Origin: Oscillospiraceae bacterium | Lineage (GTDB): Bacteria > Bacillota > Clostridia > Oscillospirales > Acutalibacteraceae | DNA: 64,000 nt | Direction of reading: 5' to 3' | Assembly (NCBI GenBank): GCA_015066225.1 | Contig: SVOT01000002.1 | Span: 186,001-250,000, forward strand | Part shown: piece after piece, positions 54,341 through 59,938 of the stretch | Position numbering within the stretch: the first letter of the stretch is position 1 | How the letters are laid out: the number at the start of each line of letters is the position of its first letter | Translations under genes and position numbers: made by a program | Notes under the pieces: model-generated | Told to the model about the DNA's origin: nothing | Seen by the model: the letters and a program-made list of their open reading frames with translations, nothing else | Databases searched by the model: none

Positions 54341-54476
54341 CTTTTAGCGCAGAAGCCGTTTTTGCTCGCTCAGAGTATCTCATACACCGTCGCTCACAAA
54401 AAAAGACTTCTGCATCTAAAATCTACCATTCTATGATAAAGGTGACCTTTTAGCGCAGAAGCCATTTTTGCTCGCT
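54341..54476. repeat. Pair of 30-nt direct repeats
   Basis: CTTTTAGCGCAGAAGCC followed by a T-rich stretch and GCTCGCT occurs at 54341-54370 and again, with one mismatch, at 54447-54476. Between them lies an AGAAGTCTTTTT-type inverted segment. It could be a short mobile or palindromic element; no gene is present. Confidence 0.6.
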
Positions 54477-54502
54477 AATGAAACGAAAAGCTCTAAAAAT
54501 TA

Positions 54503-54543
54503 CAAAAAACTGCCCGAAAATTACATTCGGTGCAGTTTTTTTG
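54503..54543 (+). terminator. Intrinsic terminator ahead of the membrane-protein array
   Basis: AAAAACTGC-CCGAA pairs with TTCGG-T-GCAGTTTTT with an approximately 7-nt loop, followed by a T run. It insulates the array from the sugar-acid genes upstream. Confidence 0.8.
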
Positions 54544-54584
54544 TTTTGTCTGCTATGCTATAGACAGCAAAGGAGATGTTAGAA

Positions 54585-55097
54585 ATGAAAAAAGTGAAAA
54601 GAATAAATACTGATTTACAGTTCGTTGTAGGTCTTTTAAGTGTAGGCATATTGTGGCTTACAGGCATATTTTCAGGTTCGTTGTGGTTTTACAGCGACAG
54701 CTTGTTTTTGTCGTGTATTCTTCCGCTGATTGGTGCAATACTTATCCCTGTTTTGGTTATGGTGTTCGCCTATATCAGCAAAAGGTATTCTATGAAGTTT
54801 ATGTATATTGCGGCTTTGGTGGCTTCCGGTGTTCCTTTGGTATCGAGCATTTTAAGTGCAATTTTTAGTGACGACGGAAGCATTTTGTCGTGGATATACG
54901 GCTTAACCATTGGTTGGATGCTATATCCGTTTTCATTATTGAGCTGGTCTGTTTTTGATGGAGTGTCCTCATTCTTCTTCGTTTTTACTGAGGAGTTTGT
55001 AGGTGGCGACAGCTTGAAGGTGTTAATGGTTATTATGATTATCGCTTCGCTCATAGTCTATAAAGTAACAAAGCCTGTGAAAAAGTGCCCGGAATAA
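54585..55097 (+). CDS. Small membrane protein, array family A (A1)
   Basis: 170 residues with four or five hydrophobic segments and a basic end (VTKPVKKCPE). I do not recognise the family. It is a paralogue of the protein at 55504-55995: 68 consecutive bases (54787-54854) are identical to 55685-55752, coding for MKFMYIAALVASGVPLVSSI. The ATG at 54585 follows AAAGGAG by nine bases; an ATG at 54576 touches the ribosome site. First gene of a seven-gene run ending in a two-component system. A TGTCT...AGACA palindrome lies just upstream (54547-54571). Confidence 0.72.
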   Translation: MKKVKRINTDLQFVVGLLSVGILWLTGIFSGSLWFYSDSLFLSCILPLIGAILIPVLVMVFAYISKRYSMKFMYIAALVASGVPLVSSILSAIFSDDGSILSWIYGLTIGWMLYPFSLLSWSVFDGVSSFFFVFTEEFVGGDSLKVLMVIMIIASLIVYKVTKPVKKCPE

Positions 55098-55118
55098 AGC
55101 TTGAAGGAGGTGTTTATT

Positions 55119-55472
55119 GTGAGCAACAACAGTACGTCTGAAAAACTAAAAACAATATATAAAATATTCACAGCAATTTTTAGTGTATCATTGGTTGCAA
55201 GCATAGCAAATATTTTAATAGAGGCCTTTTGGATTGAATCACCCTATGTTCTTAGTTTCGTTTTTGGTGGCATTATATATTTCTTTGGCTCCGTTAGTGG
55301 CTTGGGAATTGTTCCGTTGTTTATAATGGTAACGCTTGTGCTTGTGAGTACGATTTTTGCAATCAAAGAAAAAAATCACAAGAACATTATGAATATGGGG
55401 CTTTTAAAAACTCTGACAGTGATTACAGTAAGTGCATTTTTACAGAATATTATGTTAATAGAAATGGTCTGA
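55119..55472 (+). CDS. Small membrane protein, array family B (B1)
   Basis: 117 residues starting at GTG, eight bases after AAGGAGG. Three hydrophobic segments are followed by a basic FAIKEKNHKNIMNMGLLKTL stretch and a last membrane span. The same [FV]AxxEKNxKNI[FM]N motif occurs in the proteins at 56371-56742 and, in altered form, at 56766-57152, so these form a second paralogous family within the array. Function unknown. Confidence 0.68.
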   Translation: MSNNSTSEKLKTIYKIFTAIFSVSLVASIANILIEAFWIESPYVLSFVFGGIIYFFGSVSGLGIVPLFIMVTLVLVSTIFAIKEKNHKNIMNMGLLKTLTVITVSAFLQNIMLIEMV

Positions 55473-55503
55473 AAACCTCTTTGCGGGAAAGGAGATGTTC
55501 TTA

Positions 55504-55995
55504 ATGAAAAAAATGAATCCTTTTTTACAGTTTCTTATAGGCTTTTTCGGCATAGGCTTTTTGTGGCTCGCAGGTGTAATTTCATTTGAAACCGATAATT
55601 TGTTTTTGAGGCATTTTATTCCCCTTATAGTAGTAATTCTTATCACCTCGGGAGCGATGATATCCGCAGTCATTGCCAAAAAGCATTCTATGAAGTTTAT
55701 GTATATTGCGGCTTTGGTGGCTTCCGGTGTTCCTTTGGTATCGAGCATTTTAGGTTCAATTATTTGTGATATCAGGAACGGTTTAGAGTGGCTATACGGT
55801 TTAACCATTGGTTTGCTGTTACATCCCTTTGAATTATTGAGCCGATCTGTTTTTGACGGTGCTTCCTCGTTTTTTGATGTTTTTTTATATGGCTATGTAG
55901 AAAGCGACGGTTTACAAATGCTGGCGACTATCATTATTATCGCTTCGCTCATAGTCTATAAAGCAACAAAGCCTGTAAAAAATTGCCCGAAGTAA
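55504..55995 (+). CDS. Small membrane protein, array family A (A2)
   Basis: 163 residues, close paralogue of A1 with the same membrane layout (LIGFFGIGFLWLAGVISF, MKFMYIAALVASGVPLVSSI, IIIIASLIVYKATKPVKNCP). The 68-bp perfect identity with A1 points to recent duplication or gene conversion. The ATG at 55504 follows AAAGGAG by nine bases. Function unknown. Confidence 0.72.
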   Translation: MKKMNPFLQFLIGFFGIGFLWLAGVISFETDNLFLRHFIPLIVVILITSGAMISAVIAKKHSMKFMYIAALVASGVPLVSSILGSIICDIRNGLEWLYGLTIGLLLHPFELLSRSVFDGASSFFDVFLYGYVESDGLQMLATIIIIASLIVYKATKPVKNCPK

Positions 55996-56015
55996 CGCTG
56001 AAAGGGGTTGAGCTT

Positions 56016-56354
56016 ATGAAGAAAAAAGAAACTGAAATTGTAGAAAATCTGAAAAATTTTTTAATTGCACCATACATATATTTTACACTTCTGTTGGGAT
56101 CTCTTCTTTCGGCCTGTGTTTTGTTTGAGTTTGGCGTGCTTGAGACCATTAAAGAACTTTTAATGTATTTGTTCGGAATATTGTATATGGCAGGGTTTAT
56201 TAACGTTCTTTGGTTAATAATTTCATTCGTTTGGTGTGTGGTTATATGCTGCAAAGAAAAAAGCAAACGAATATTTTTTAAACCATACGTTGCAGTAGCG
56301 TTTATTCTGATGACAGTTTTTATAATAGTTTATTTTTCGAGACCTTGGTATTGA
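56016..56354 (+). CDS. Small membrane protein in the array, divergent
   Basis: 112 residues with a charged start (MKKKETEIVENLKNFL), three hydrophobic segments and a basic CCKEKSKRIFFKP loop that may correspond to the EKNxKNI motif of family B. The ATG at 56016 follows GGGG by about eight bases; a longer reading frame begins inside the previous gene and was rejected. Confidence 0.62.
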   Translation: MKKKETEIVENLKNFLIAPYIYFTLLLGSLLSACVLFEFGVLETIKELLMYLFGILYMAGFINVLWLIISFVWCVVICCKEKSKRIFFKPYVAVAFILMTVFIIVYFSRPWY

Positions 56355-56370
56355 GAATGGGGGCTCAGAT

Positions 56371-56742
56371 ATGAATAAAAAGACAGTTTCACAGAGTGTG
56401 AAGGATTTTTGCAAAACCTTTGCAATCATTTACGGAGTGGGGATATGCTTTAATATAACGGCACACTTGTTCGCATATGTTGGCTCTGTGTTAAATTTGG
56501 GCGATTGGTTTGATAAATTAGTGAACTGGTTAATGTTCCCTTACGTTCTGGTGTTTGGTATGCTCAGCTTTTATATTGTGGCACCTATAATGGTGATATC
56601 AGCATTGATTATTTGCGGAGTCGTTTTTGCCATATCTGAAAAAAATTCGAAAAACATTTTTAATCTTCCGTTGCTTGGAACGATAGGCTTGGTTGTTATA
56701 AACACGATTATGCTTCTTTTAATTCCGGGCATATTTGGTTGA
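56371..56742 (+). CDS. Small membrane protein, array family B (B2)
   Basis: 123 residues beginning MNKKTVSQSVKDFCKTFAII, with three membrane segments and the VFAISEKNSKNIFNLPLLGT motif before the last span. Its N-terminus is very similar to that of the next protein (MNKKPVSQKVKKLCAPFAMI), so the two are tandem paralogues. Function unknown. Confidence 0.7.
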   Translation: MNKKTVSQSVKDFCKTFAIIYGVGICFNITAHLFAYVGSVLNLGDWFDKLVNWLMFPYVLVFGMLSFYIVAPIMVISALIICGVVFAISEKNSKNIFNLPLLGTIGLVVINTIMLLLIPGIFG

Positions 56743-56765
56743 GTGATTCAAAGGAGGCTCACTTT

Positions 56766-57152
56766 ATGAATAAGAAACCTGTTTCACAAAAAGTGAAAAA
56801 GCTCTGTGCCCCCTTTGCAATGATTTACGGGTTGGGGATATGGTTTGTAGCAGTAACAGAGATATTAAAAAAGCTCGCTTTTGATTTTGGTGTTAATGAA
56901 TGGTTTATTGATTTAATAAATGAAATCATATTCGATTCATATTATCCATTGATTATATCAATGGTTTTCTTGAGAGAAATTGTGTTTTTGCTTCCTGTAG
57001 CGGCGGTGTTGGCGTTAATTATTTTTGGCGTTGTTTATGCACGGCGTGAAGGGAATATAAGAAACATTTTCAATGTTTATATATGGGGAACAAGCGCATT
57101 GGTAATTATATCTGCTACAGCCAGGTATTTGATATTGTATGAATTTTTCTGA
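56766..57152 (+). CDS. Small membrane protein, array family B (B3)
   Basis: 128 residues, paralogue of B2, with the motif changed to YARREGNIRNIFNVYIWGTS. The ATG at 56766 follows AAAGGAGGCTCACTTT; an upstream reading frame from 56739 overlaps the previous stop and was rejected. Function unknown. Confidence 0.7.
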   Translation: MNKKPVSQKVKKLCAPFAMIYGLGIWFVAVTEILKKLAFDFGVNEWFIDLINEIIFDSYYPLIISMVFLREIVFLLPVAAVLALIIFGVVYARREGNIRNIFNVYIWGTSALVIISATARYLILYEFF

Positions 57153-57181
57153 GTTTTATTTTTAAAAGGTCAGGTGAGATT

Positions 57182-57781
57182 ATGATTAAAAGATTCAAAG
57201 AAAATGAACGTGCCCAGATTATTTTGGGCGTTGGAATATTCAGCGTGTTGTGGATTCTTGCTGTTTTGTTTGCAGGTGAAATTACTTTTATTGACACCGT
57301 AACCCTTTTCACAAGTGAAATGTTCCCGCCGTTTTTAAACATAATACTTCCCTTTGTTTTTGTACCCCTTTTGTGTATCGTAGCGGTTCTCAGCAAGCGC
57401 TACGGCTTGAAAAAGCTTTACAAAAGTGCATATCTTGTAGCTGTGATTCCTATGGCGGCAGGGGCAATGGCAGTTGTAGCTTCAGCTGTTTCAGAGCTTT
57501 TTATATACAGGCTTGAGTGTGTTGAGTGGCTTGAATTGATTTTGGAAACAGTGTTAAGTATATATATGGTTTGCTCAATGTTTGTGGCGATTCCCGTGAC
57601 GTCTTCAGCAGTGGCTTTTAGTGAGGGTGTAAGTTTTTATACAGAGGGTTTGATTGTGGAAGAAGAGGTGGGATTGATATATTTTATTTTCGGCTTTTTC
57701 TTCTTCGGCATAATCTTTTCTATGCTGAGCTACGATTTAACCGAAGAAAGGCAGAATAACGATATTCAACTTCACGCATAA
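57182..57781 (+). CDS. Small membrane protein, array family A (A3)
   Basis: 199 residues, a more distant member of family A: LGVGIFSVLWILAVLFAGEI corresponds to the first span of A1/A2, and AVLSKRYGLKKLYKSAYLVA to their FAYISKRYSMKFMYIAALVA. It lacks the KPVKKCP ending and instead has a hydrophilic C-terminus. Last of the membrane proteins before the regulator gene. Confidence 0.68.
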   Translation: MIKRFKENERAQIILGVGIFSVLWILAVLFAGEITFIDTVTLFTSEMFPPFLNIILPFVFVPLLCIVAVLSKRYGLKKLYKSAYLVAVIPMAAGAMAVVASAVSELFIYRLECVEWLELILETVLSIYMVCSMFVAIPVTSSAVAFSEGVSFYTEGLIVEEEVGLIYFIFGFFFFGIIFSMLSYDLTEERQNNDIQLHA

Positions 57782-57789
57782 AAAAACGG

Positions 57790-57818
57790 TGGCAATAAAT
57801 AAAAAGATGTGTTATATT
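57790..57818 (+). promoter_or_regulatory. Possible promoter of the two-component genes
   Basis: TGGCAA and TATATT with 17-bp spacing, 18 nt before the regulator start; the -35 box is weak, so read-through from the array is also likely. Confidence 0.4.
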
Positions 57819-57836
57819 AAACTGTGAGGTGGGAAT

Positions 57837-58547
57837 ATGCTTAAAATTGCAATTTGCGATGATGAGAAAACTGTTTGCGATTACATAGAAAAGCGCACAA
57901 GGGATTACCTTGCAAAAATTGATGAGGATGCTGTTCTTGCGGTGTTCCGCGACGGGGCACCGCTTGTCAGAAATTGTGAGGAGAATCCCACGGCATTTGA
58001 CATCATTTTTCTCGATATAAAAATGAAAACCGTCAACGGGGTGGACTGTGCAAAACAGCTTCGTGATTCAGGGGTGGGGGCTCTTATTGTTTTTGTTACC
58101 TCGTCGGCAGAATATGTTTTTACGGGCTACGAGGTAAAGGCGTTCCGCTATATTCTCAAAACGGACCTTGTCAACGCTTTTGACAGAATATTCGGCGAAT
58201 GCTTAAAGGAGCTTTCAAAATCAGACGACAGCTTTTACACAATTAAAACTGCCTCCTCCGTAAACAACGTCCCCTTGAACGATATCCTTTATTTCGAAAG
58301 CAACAAAAGGGTGCTTGTTGTTCACACAAAAAATGCACAATACAGCTTTTATGAGAAGCTGGACAAGGTTGAAAAAGACCTTGATGGCAAGGATTTTATA
58401 AGAACACATCAAAGCTATCTTGTAAATGCCAAAAAAATTAAAAGCCTGTCAAAGGATTGCGCAGAGCTTCATGGCGGCGAAACCGTGCCCGTCAGCAAGA
58501 GTAAGTCCTCTGCAGTTAAAAATGCGTATCTTTGGGCAAAAAGGTGA
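57837..58547 (+). CDS. LytTR response regulator (AgrA/VirR type)
   Basis: 236-residue transcription factor. The receiver domain has the acidic pair in AICDDEKTV (residues 8-9), the phosphorylated Asp60 in IIFLDIKM, VFVTSS (Thr/Ser switch) and the conserved Lys in AFRYILKTD. The LytTR DNA-binding domain follows from about 135 (ILYFESNKRVLVVHT, FIRTHQSYLVNAKKI). Such regulators control peptide-quorum, bacteriocin or envelope genes through direct-repeat sites. It precedes its GHKL kinase by 6 nt and follows the membrane-protein array by 55 nt. Confidence 0.95.
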   Translation: MLKIAICDDEKTVCDYIEKRTRDYLAKIDEDAVLAVFRDGAPLVRNCEENPTAFDIIFLDIKMKTVNGVDCAKQLRDSGVGALIVFVTSSAEYVFTGYEVKAFRYILKTDLVNAFDRIFGECLKELSKSDDSFYTIKTASSVNNVPLNDILYFESNKRVLVVHTKNAQYSFYEKLDKVEKDLDGKDFIRTHQSYLVNAKKIKSLSKDCAELHGGETVPVSKSKSSAVKNAYLWAKR

Positions 58548-58553
58548 TGAAAA

Positions 58554-59888
58554 ATGCTTGAATTTATTGAAACTACGTTGTTTTATCTCATAAGGCTGTT
58601 TTCATCAACTCTTGAAATGTTTTTTGCATTTCTTCTGATGAACGCCTTTTTCGATGAAAAATATAAAAGCAGAATACCCAAATGGGCTGCGTTTGTGGCA
58701 AGCTCCGGCATTCTTCTTGCGTTGCAGGAGACCGGTCAAAGCGGTAACATCAAAACCGCTGTGCAGATGCTTCTGATTTTTGTTGTGTCATTGTTTATTT
58801 TTGACGGCAAAAAACGGTTAAAGGGTCTTTTCTGCGTTGTTTATTCGCTTTTTGTTGCACTTTCAAAGCTTCTTTCCTATTTTGCTTTTTCGCTGTTTAT
58901 TGACAGGGTTTTTGAAAAAATACCCTATCTTGAAACAGACAGCTTTTTCTATCGAATCCTTTCTATTGAACTGCCGAACATATTTATGTTTGTTATAATT
59001 ATGCTTTTGGGTATGTTCACAAAATCAAAGAACAAAGCCGTTCCTATAAGATATTGGCTTCTTCTTCTGACTGTTCCGGTTACAACTCTGGGTACACTTA
59101 CCGTTTACCAATACTATATAGACAGAATGGCACCGGGCGAGGACATAAACATCTACATAATTGTTTCAACCGTGGGCCTTGTGTTTATTAACGTGCTTGT
59201 TTTTACGCTGTTTTCAAAGCTTCAGAATCAGCTTGAAATGCGGCGCAATGCCGACCTTCTCAGCACGCAGATGCGCCTTGAAAAGGAATCCTTCAAACGA
59301 ATTGAAGAAAGCTATAACAGAACAAGAGAGCTTCGCCACGATTTGAAAAATCATATATACGTTCTTAAAGGCATAACAGAAAACGGAACAAAGGAAGAGG
59401 TGCTTTCATACCTTGAAAAAATGACCGATGCCGTTGAAGAAGCAACGTATATCTCAATGAGCGGCAATTCAGCAGTTGATGCAATACTGAACGAAAAGCT
59501 TATTGATGCGAGAAAAAACGGTGTGTCAACACAGTTTGACATCACACCCCTGCGGGAATTGAAAATATCGGCCATGGATGTCTGCACAATTCTCAGCAAT
59601 GCTCTTGACAATGCTGTTGAGGCTTGTGTGAAGCTTGAACAACCCGGCGACAGATATATTGACGTGAAAATTGAGGACGGGGAAAATGAAATGATAATCT
59701 CTGTTAAAAATCCGTCTGCAGAAGCACCGAAGCGCAGAGCGGGTGCTTACGTTTCACGAAAAAAAGACAAGGAAAATCACGGGCTTGGTCTTAAAAGCAT
59801 CAAAAGGACGGTTGACAAGCACAAAGGTGATATGCTTGTTAAATACGAGGACGGAGTTTTCAATCTTGTTATTTCATTACCGTATTAA
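58554..59888 (+). CDS. GHKL-type sensor histidine kinase (AgrC-like)
   Basis: 444 residues. Six or seven membrane segments fill 1-220; a dimerisation helix follows with the phospho-acceptor His262 in RELRHDLKNHIYVLKG. The ATPase domain has the N-box ILSNALDNAVEAC (about 346-358) and the G-box GLGLKSI (409-415). This layout is that of peptide-sensing kinases such as AgrC and of envelope sensors. No AgrB/AgrD-like pair was found beside it, so one of the neighbouring small membrane proteins may take part in sensing; that is inference. It ends just before a strong terminator. Confidence 0.94.
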   Translation: MLEFIETTLFYLIRLFSSTLEMFFAFLLMNAFFDEKYKSRIPKWAAFVASSGILLALQETGQSGNIKTAVQMLLIFVVSLFIFDGKKRLKGLFCVVYSLFVALSKLLSYFAFSLFIDRVFEKIPYLETDSFFYRILSIELPNIFMFVIIMLLGMFTKSKNKAVPIRYWLLLLTVPVTTLGTLTVYQYYIDRMAPGEDINIYIIVSTVGLVFINVLVFTLFSKLQNQLEMRRNADLLSTQMRLEKESFKRIEESYNRTRELRHDLKNHIYVLKGITENGTKEEVLSYLEKMTDAVEEATYISMSGNSAVDAILNEKLIDARKNGVSTQFDITPLRELKISAMDVCTILSNALDNAVEACVKLEQPGDRYIDVKIEDGENEMIISVKNPSAEAPKRRAGAYVSRKKDKENHGLGLKSIKRTVDKHKGDMLVKYEDGVFNLVISLPY

Positions 59889-59896
59889 TAAAAGAT

Positions 59897-59938
59897 AAAG
59901 GGGCTGTAAAAAAACGAACGTTTTTTTACAGCTCCTTT
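59897..59938 (+). terminator. Intrinsic terminator after the histidine kinase
   Basis: A 20-bp stem, AAAGGGGCTGTAAAAAAACG / CGTTTTTTTACAGCTCCTTT (one mismatch), with a 2-nt loop and built-in T run, 8 nt after the stop. Confidence 0.9.

Follow-up and report, generated by a model that had tools for sequence, protein, structure and literature searches.

What does a bacterium do with seven small membrane-protein genes in a row, set directly before a LytTR-type two-component system (TCS)? Such a locus lies in a 64,000-nucleotide stretch of an Oscillospiraceae bacterium genome (assembly GCA_015066225.1, contig SVOT01000002.1, positions 186,001 to 250,000), referred to here as the window. The source genome (G000; other genomes and loci carry G and L numbers) consists of 2.04 Mb in 18 contigs and is 95% complete. 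Seven open reading frames (ORFs) for multi-span membrane proteins (the array, 54585 to 57781) are followed by genes for a response regulator (57837 to 58547) and a sensor histidine kinase (58554 to 59888). All are co-directional, with gaps of 16 to 31 nucleotides (nt) within the array, 55 nt between the array and the regulator, and 6 nt between the regulator and the kinase. An earlier interpretation of the letters alone (the sequence-only reading) had described these genes, all of which were recovered in place and in one direction. It had also tied the array to the LytTR/GHKL system, a tie now strengthened by the conservation of the operon in the genus, by a direct repeat upstream of 54585, and by the co-occurrence of regulator and site. 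Judged by this sequence evidence, the array is the output of the adjacent LytTR system. The array itself is well beyond chance because orthologous arrays exist in other genomes. The main features are as follows, the gene order of the array being A1 B1 A2 b B2 B3 A' (b, the ORF at 56016).

54495..54525, + strand: LytTR-type direct repeat AAAAATTACA-N12-AAAATTACA with a 21-nt period, an exact match to the element before relatives' arrays; candidate site for binding by the response regulator.
54554..54559, + strand: candidate -10 hexamer, TATGCT with TGC before it; its distance behind the second repeat is 28 nt.
54585..55097, + strand: A1, 170 amino acids (aa), five transmembrane (TM) spans, family A; no Pfam/NCBIfam match; five helices in the AlphaFold model (predicted local distance difference test score, 84).
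55119..55472, + strand: B1, 117 aa, three to four TM spans, family B, GTG start.
55504..55995, + strand: A2, 163 aa, family A, paralogue of A1 sharing a 68-nt identical stretch.
56016..56354, + strand: b, 112 aa, three TM spans, very divergent, possibly family B, on a long branch.
56371..56742, + strand: B2, 123 aa, family B.
56766..57152, + strand: B3, 128 aa, family B.
57182..57781, + strand: A', 199 aa, five to six TM spans, A' subfamily.
57837..58547, + strand: response regulator, REC + LytTR, 236 aa (PF04397, 5e-23; PF00072, 8e-12).
58554..59888, + strand: GHKL-type sensor histidine kinase, 444 aa, with a multi-TM sensor (PF14501, 3e-26); 14 orthologues were aligned.

We compared 21 upstream regions (13 TCS-linked and 8 at distal loci), and the 17 exact sites found there defined the pattern. 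The element AAAAATTACA-N12-AAARTTACA was present in 13/13 TCS-linked and 4/8 distal upstream regions; it was not seen in the upstream stretch inspected for G003d, G014d, G015d, and G006d, though for the G006 distal genes a one-mismatch site lies further upstream, before the run to which they belong. The sequence-only reading had pointed to the region upstream of 54585 as a place to look for LytTR direct repeats, and the repeat at 54495 to 54525 is the sole exact AAAAATTACA-N12-AAAATTACA copy in its own genome. Across the genus, 24 exact sites occurred in 14 of 15 genomes with a response regulator orthologue (at least 64% identity) and in none of the 7 genomes without one (Fisher P = 5e-5). The sole regulator-bearing genome without an exact site is G021, whose arrays are cut by contig ends. 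Every one of the 24 precedes a multi-TM gene: 13 TCS-linked operons, 4 distal A/B arrays, 5 operons encoding XRE-HTH and multi-TM proteins, 1 B-like gene, and 1 gene for a 123-aa protein with four TM spans. Seven of these exact sites were found after the 17 had set the pattern (five before XRE-HTH proteins, one before the 123-aa gene, and one before the B-like gene, which lies close to the end of its contig), as were five variant sites in other genera. From the genus list, six further sites with one or two mismatches were chosen for their fitting spacer; they precede DUF2157-type operons (three) or multi-TM proteins of 456 to 467 aa (three). The genus sites looked at were thus the 24 exact and the 6 chosen ones, and the 35 other rows, including the one-mismatch sites G020:C27 and G005:C88, were left out.

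The promoter geometry agrees with the site. In 34/35 sites (the 30 genus sites and the 5 variant sites of other genera), a TANNNT hexamer begins at an offset of exactly 28 nt from the second repeat, whereas no other offset between 10 and 49 has one in more than 6/35; the -10 had played no part in the choice of sites. The presumed -35 of the window promoter is poor and its -10 is good, and the poor -35 would fit an activated promoter. Three further elements belong to the transcription unit.

54502..54544, + strand: terminator-like hairpin with a T-run (RNA fold, -17.6 kcal/mol; z, -5.5), with the second repeat in its loop.
57810..57818, + strand: TGTTATATT, a candidate extended -10 from which the regulator-kinase pair would be transcribed separately; picked by eye and without a direct repeat.
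59897..59938, + strand: inverted repeat with 20-nt arms (95% complementary), a likely terminator at the operon end.

Inspection by eye showed stems like that of the hairpin at some of the other sites, and the hairpin may insulate the promoter from transcription out of the upstream sugar-kinase-like gene. Between that gene and the array promoter there is also a 30-nt direct repeat (54341 to 54370 and 54447 to 54476; 97% identical), with two copies only in the window. In the aligned gap before the regulator (55 to 91 nt; 15 genomes), a -10-like element is present, in weaker form in G008, G012, G017, and G020, so basal transcription of the regulator-kinase pair may start from a separate promoter.

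Of the 22 genomes of the genus, 15 have a detected regulator orthologue, 16 have family A, and 11 have family B. Family A occurs in 14/15 regulator-bearing genomes and 2/7 others (G010 and G015), and family B occurs in 11/15 and 0/7, respectively. The order of A/B genes, regulator, and kinase is maintained in the genus. What varies is the set of genes before the regulator: B-A-A' in G003; B-A-A'-A' in G014; A-B fusions with extra B genes in G008, G017, and G020, and a lone fusion in G012; 286-aa proteins of fusion length (matched by the A profile only) with a B in G006 and G013; one to four B genes in G007, G001 (to the contig end), G011, and G002; and two B-like genes missed by the profile in G018, the G021 contig ending at this point. 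A second array with A genes is found on another contig in G001, G002, G011, G018, and G021, that of G001 being flanked by GH3 and flavin oxidoreductase genes. The 14 nearest named loci (L134 to L147), with regulators 64 to 83% identical, all come from metagenome assemblies labeled Oscillospiraceae or Clostridia; the record titles of nine name a ruminant gut sample and those of five name no host. The kinase gene of G003 (L088) and one A gene of G006 (L106/L253) each show up as a pair of ORFs.

All seven array proteins are multi-span, as the sequence-only reading had said, with three to six predicted spans each by a Kyte-Doolittle scan. A proteins have five helices (the AlphaFold model of 54585 gives five long ones) and B proteins have three to four. 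The proposed grouping held in part. The B proteins at 55119, 56371, and 56766 are true paralogues by sequence, and so are A1 and A2 (60% aa identity). A' (57182), which had been placed with them, is only 23% identical to 54585 and groups with its orthologues from other genomes in a clade apart; by sequence it belongs to an old subfamily distinct from that of A1 and A2, so that "family A" consists of two subfamilies. The member singled out as divergent, 56016, is indeed so: its phmmer E values were 0.005 to 0.4 against B proteins and 0.06 at best against A proteins, and it has the longest branch in the B tree. Its strong match to the B profile carries no weight, since the profile seed included it, and by sequence its place in family B, as a very divergent member, is doubtful. 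The two kinds of protein do mix along the array, although the order A B A b B B A' does not alternate strictly.

The remark that these proteins belong to no recognized family was borne out: no family was assigned to any of the seven in Pfam, NCBIfam, PADLOC, or PHROGs. The best stray matches, a phosphotransferase system transporter model matching B2 (E, 0.006) and the PADLOC candidate-system profile PDC-M62A matching 43 residues of B3 (E, 4e-4), were set aside as chance similarities of hydrophobic segments. DUF6097 matched two of the three fusion-type proteins scanned (E, 2e-4 and 1e-3), under its cut-off. Profile comparisons gave no sound homology between A and B (53 columns aligned; 32% probability) or between A and the XRE-DUF2157 proteins (3% probability). 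A and B are separate families that probably work together and perhaps touch, as they are fused in some relatives (G008, G012, G017, and G020). In the open-access PMC literature we recognized no description of the locus, the site, or the A/B families.

The whole-gene ratio of nonsynonymous to synonymous substitution rates (dN/dS; pairwise NG86) was 0.18 to 0.65 in ten A/B or fusion pairs and 0.07 to 0.10 in four regulator or kinase pairs, 6 of the 14 dS values exceeding 1 and being near saturation. By these estimates, the A/B proteins change faster than the regulator and yet are under purifying selection overall. Diversifying selection, which the sequence-only reading had suggested from the repetition, was rejected as a whole-gene effect because dN/dS was below 1 throughout. 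The tree resolves A1 and A2 as products of a duplication within this lineage (support, 98/97), and the two share an identical run of 68 nt that was reached in 0 of 20,000 codon permutations (mean, 19; largest, 51), which indicates gene conversion.

The regulator, the only LytTR match in its own genome, and the neighboring GHKL kinase matched PF00072, PF04397, and PF14501 over the cut-offs. The pair had been called AgrC/AgrA-like, and it does resemble AgrA and AgrC; beyond this resemblance, the label was not sustained. Scores were far below the equivalog cut-offs (65 bits versus 400 for the AgrA model and 52 bits versus 500 for the AgrC model), and AgrB (PF04647) was not found in the 95% complete source genome; it exceeded its cut-off in 3 of the 22 genus genomes, on contigs other than that of the TCS. 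Agr-type pheromone receptors have a variable sensor domain, in contrast to the kinase here, whose sensor region has a mean pairwise identity of 79% (DHp-like part, 85%; ATPase domain, 72%) among 14 orthologues, the broken G003 copy being left out. On these grounds, Agr quorum sensing was rejected. The 28 operons traced from the site contained only two small ORFs with ribosome-binding sites; one is a piece of an A gene, the other shows no peptide-like features, and neither was plausible as a peptide precursor gene, though peptides may be encoded elsewhere. The conserved sensor, the AgrB search that found none in the source genome, and the lack of a plausible peptide gene in these operons point to a conserved cue rather than to a strain-specific pheromone.

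The five XRE-HTH proteins behind exact sites have 11 to 14 predicted spans, and each is followed by a protein of one or two spans. Viewed by locus, L244, L245, L248, L250, L251, L252, L254, and L255 carry, behind a LytTR site, proteins of 10 to 14 spans with an N-terminal XRE-HTH (except L255), each followed by a 220- to 261-aa protein of one or two spans; no Pfam family was found in the two of these scanned. DUF2157 exceeded its cut-off in 3/3 proteins scanned from the XRE operons (L252, 5e-16; L254, 1e-10; and L255, without the HTH, 4e-14), all in relatives. According to the sections of PMC11237479 used here, DUF2157 is part of the LiaF membrane region, and PadR-HAAS pairs are linked to envelope stress. 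L252 has a PadR gene upstream of its site, and in L125 a PadR gene with a HAAS-like partner precedes an A gene.

In other genera, variant sites with two to three mismatches occur at L150, L151, L152, L154, and L155, at or just after the kinase end (overlapping the kinase gene in L150 and L152). They precede genes for short multi-TM proteins in L151 and L154 and for DUF2339 proteins in L150 and, judged by 88% identity, in L152; the L155 contig ends soon after. One protein in L154:11149-14097 contains two copies of a unit of roughly 150 aa, which recurs in the neighboring protein and in L151:11166-13517. A site common to all relatives of the regulator was rejected: across 23 loci (L148 to L161 and L118 to L126), these five have a site with two to three mismatches at the kinase end, and L121 has a three-mismatch match elsewhere. 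Regulators 42 to 52% identical in other genera adjoin a GH38 mannosidase gene (scanned in L159, with neighbors of similar length in most of L156 to L161), and at L148, L149, L153, and L118, MFS and GtrA genes (scanned in L148) precede regulator-kinase relatives that are about 50% identical. No site with three or fewer mismatches was found at these GH38-type (L156 to L161) and GtrA-type (L118, L148, L149, and L153) loci, four-mismatch matches being treated as chance. Where regulator and site occur together, the targets are mostly membrane proteins of changing families, G029 and G154 being exceptions.

We extended the comparison to 250 genomes of the family, of which 8 had regulator relatives (E <= 1e-40), 7 had family A, and 6 had both (Fisher P = 6e-10; without the own genus, 2e-5). 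In G154, G240, and G319, the other-genus genomes with both, the A gene is not near the regulator. An order-wide search with A5, a long model, at a cut-off of 1e-4 found the own genome only (1/394). With A in 7/250 family and 1/394 order genomes, the family looks narrow. A degenerate form of the exact site occurred 13 times in 8 family genomes, 5 of them with the regulator, and once in the control. Some of these sites may be due to chance; that of G164 is inside a gene, and that of G226 has no -10 at offset 28. The exact site at L265 (G154) has TATGAT at offset 27 and precedes the gene for a soluble 306-aa protein that by eye resembles a diacylglycerol (lipid) kinase. G165 has three sites of the form AAAAATGACA-N12-AAAATGACA (L266, L269, and L271) with TATTGT at offset 28, perhaps used by another LytTR regulator with the same site.

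The reading that we favor, at about even confidence and as far as sequence can tell, is an autoregulated, envelope-responsive LytTR/GHKL TCS that would switch on lineage-specific A/B membrane proteins. The multi-TM kinase would phosphorylate the regulator on sensing some conserved state of the envelope, for example a perturbed membrane or the presence of a membrane-active compound. Sequence argues strongly for the next step, in which the regulator is predicted to bind 54495 to 54525 and to activate the adjacent promoter. Expression of the A/B array would then rise, as the sequence also suggests, and with it, by read-through, that of the regulator and kinase, which probably have a weak promoter of their own; in related species, the same site fronts further A/B arrays and XRE/DUF2157-type operons. 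The A-B fusions suggest that A and B form one membrane complex. Least certainly, this complex might stabilize or protect the membrane in the manner of Lia/Psp effectors, without necessarily acting as an enzyme or a transporter. The sequence-only reading had offered membrane-stress defense, immunity to a membrane-active peptide, and a sensing module as possible roles; given the context in relatives (DUF2157, PadR, and DUF2339), we regard an envelope-stress effector, with moderate confidence, as the likeliest role. It is a tentative and somewhat doubtful extension that A and B are the two subunits of a new class of membrane-stabilizing complex, multiplied and recombined by lineage, with a LytTR TCS doing the LiaRS/Psp job in those Clostridia in which PspA was not found. 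As far as the sections of PMC11237479 used here describe it, LiaFSR/Psp is likewise a TCS placed over small membrane proteins. A further likeness is that in relatives of the source genome, DUF2157 and PadR genes lie in or near the proposed regulon. LiaFSR/Psp differs from our system in that here a LytTR regulator replaces LiaR, PspA was not found, and A/B have no detected sequence relation to it.

Several observations weigh against this reading. The distal A genes of G003, G014, and G015 have no site in the upstream stretch inspected, a B but no A match was obtained in G007, and the own genome carries a single site only, before the A/B array. With up to two mismatches allowed, the genus had 65 sites and the reversed-pattern control had 66; only exact sites therefore carry weight. 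In the family sample, three of the eight genomes with a site had no detected regulator (G164, G165, and G226), three of the eight with a regulator had no site (G064, G240, and G319), and two sites precede soluble proteins (422 aa in G029 and the 306-aa protein of G154). No fold match from the structure searches yielded a function. On the envelope side, the HAAS match in L125 (E, 0.0038) is below the cut-off. PspA/LiaH (PF04012) was found in 0/22 genus genomes (controls matched in 9/14), that is, also where the regulator is absent, which lends no specific support.

The A/B proteins might instead be immunity proteins against membrane-active bacteriocins, induced by peptide sensing of the Blp or Agr type. 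The BlpRH regulon of Streptococcus gallolyticus, in the sections of PMC8545106 used here, likewise combines a histidine kinase and a REC-LytTR regulator (BlpH/BlpR) that governs several promoters through one conserved 30-bp operator; the present system differs in its lack of a plausible peptide gene in the checked operons, its conserved sensor, and its A/B and DUF2157-type targets. A set of duplicated, gene-converted genes for small multi-span proteins would be in keeping with immunity. The 28 operons without a plausible peptide gene, AgrB over its cut-off in 3/22 genomes and not found in the own genome, a sensor region 79% identical among orthologues, unlike pheromone receptors, and whole-gene dN/dS below 1 nonetheless make immunity an unlikely role.

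It is similarly improbable that the A/B proteins are signaling partners of the kinase or regulator, as inhibitors or co-sensors, in a feedback loop like that of the LytTR regulatory systems (LRS) with a kinase added. There are likenesses: the sections of PMC6193735 used here describe, for LRS such as HdrRM/BrsRM of Streptococcus mutans, a LytTR regulator and a membrane inhibitor in one autoregulated operon, mostly with 9-bp direct repeats spaced 12 bp apart just upstream of the promoter. Here, too, autoregulation is probable, the array adjoins the regulator across the genus, and a 9-12-9 direct repeat, fitting in length and spacing, lies upstream of the operon promoter. LRS, however, are two-protein systems distinct from TCS, and the regulator in the window contains a receiver domain and is paired with a histidine kinase; the window membrane proteins are several, belong to other families (no DUF3021 or DUF2154 match in the Pfam search), and occur in distal operons of relatives as well. 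Site-bearing A/B arrays far from the TCS, together with widely varying copy number and make-up, fit targets better than fixed partners. We consider it least likely that the system tunes transport or metabolism (e.g., of glycans), with A/B as subunits of an uncatalogued transporter. The GH38 or MFS/GtrA neighbors of the 42 to 52% identical regulators and the GH3 and flavin oxidoreductase genes around the distal array of G001 would suit this, but the former loci (L156 to L161 and L118, L148, L149, and L153) are those without a site, and the seven proteins had no significant match to an ATPase or transporter family.

Regulation by LytTR/GHKL systems is known; the target families are uncatalogued. 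The analysis provides a defined regulon, with regulator, DNA site, promoter geometry, and targets, for two membrane-protein families outside the searched libraries. If the envelope-response reading is true, these bacteria would have a LytTR-run envelope response without PspA, and the DNA pattern would serve to find more of its target genes.

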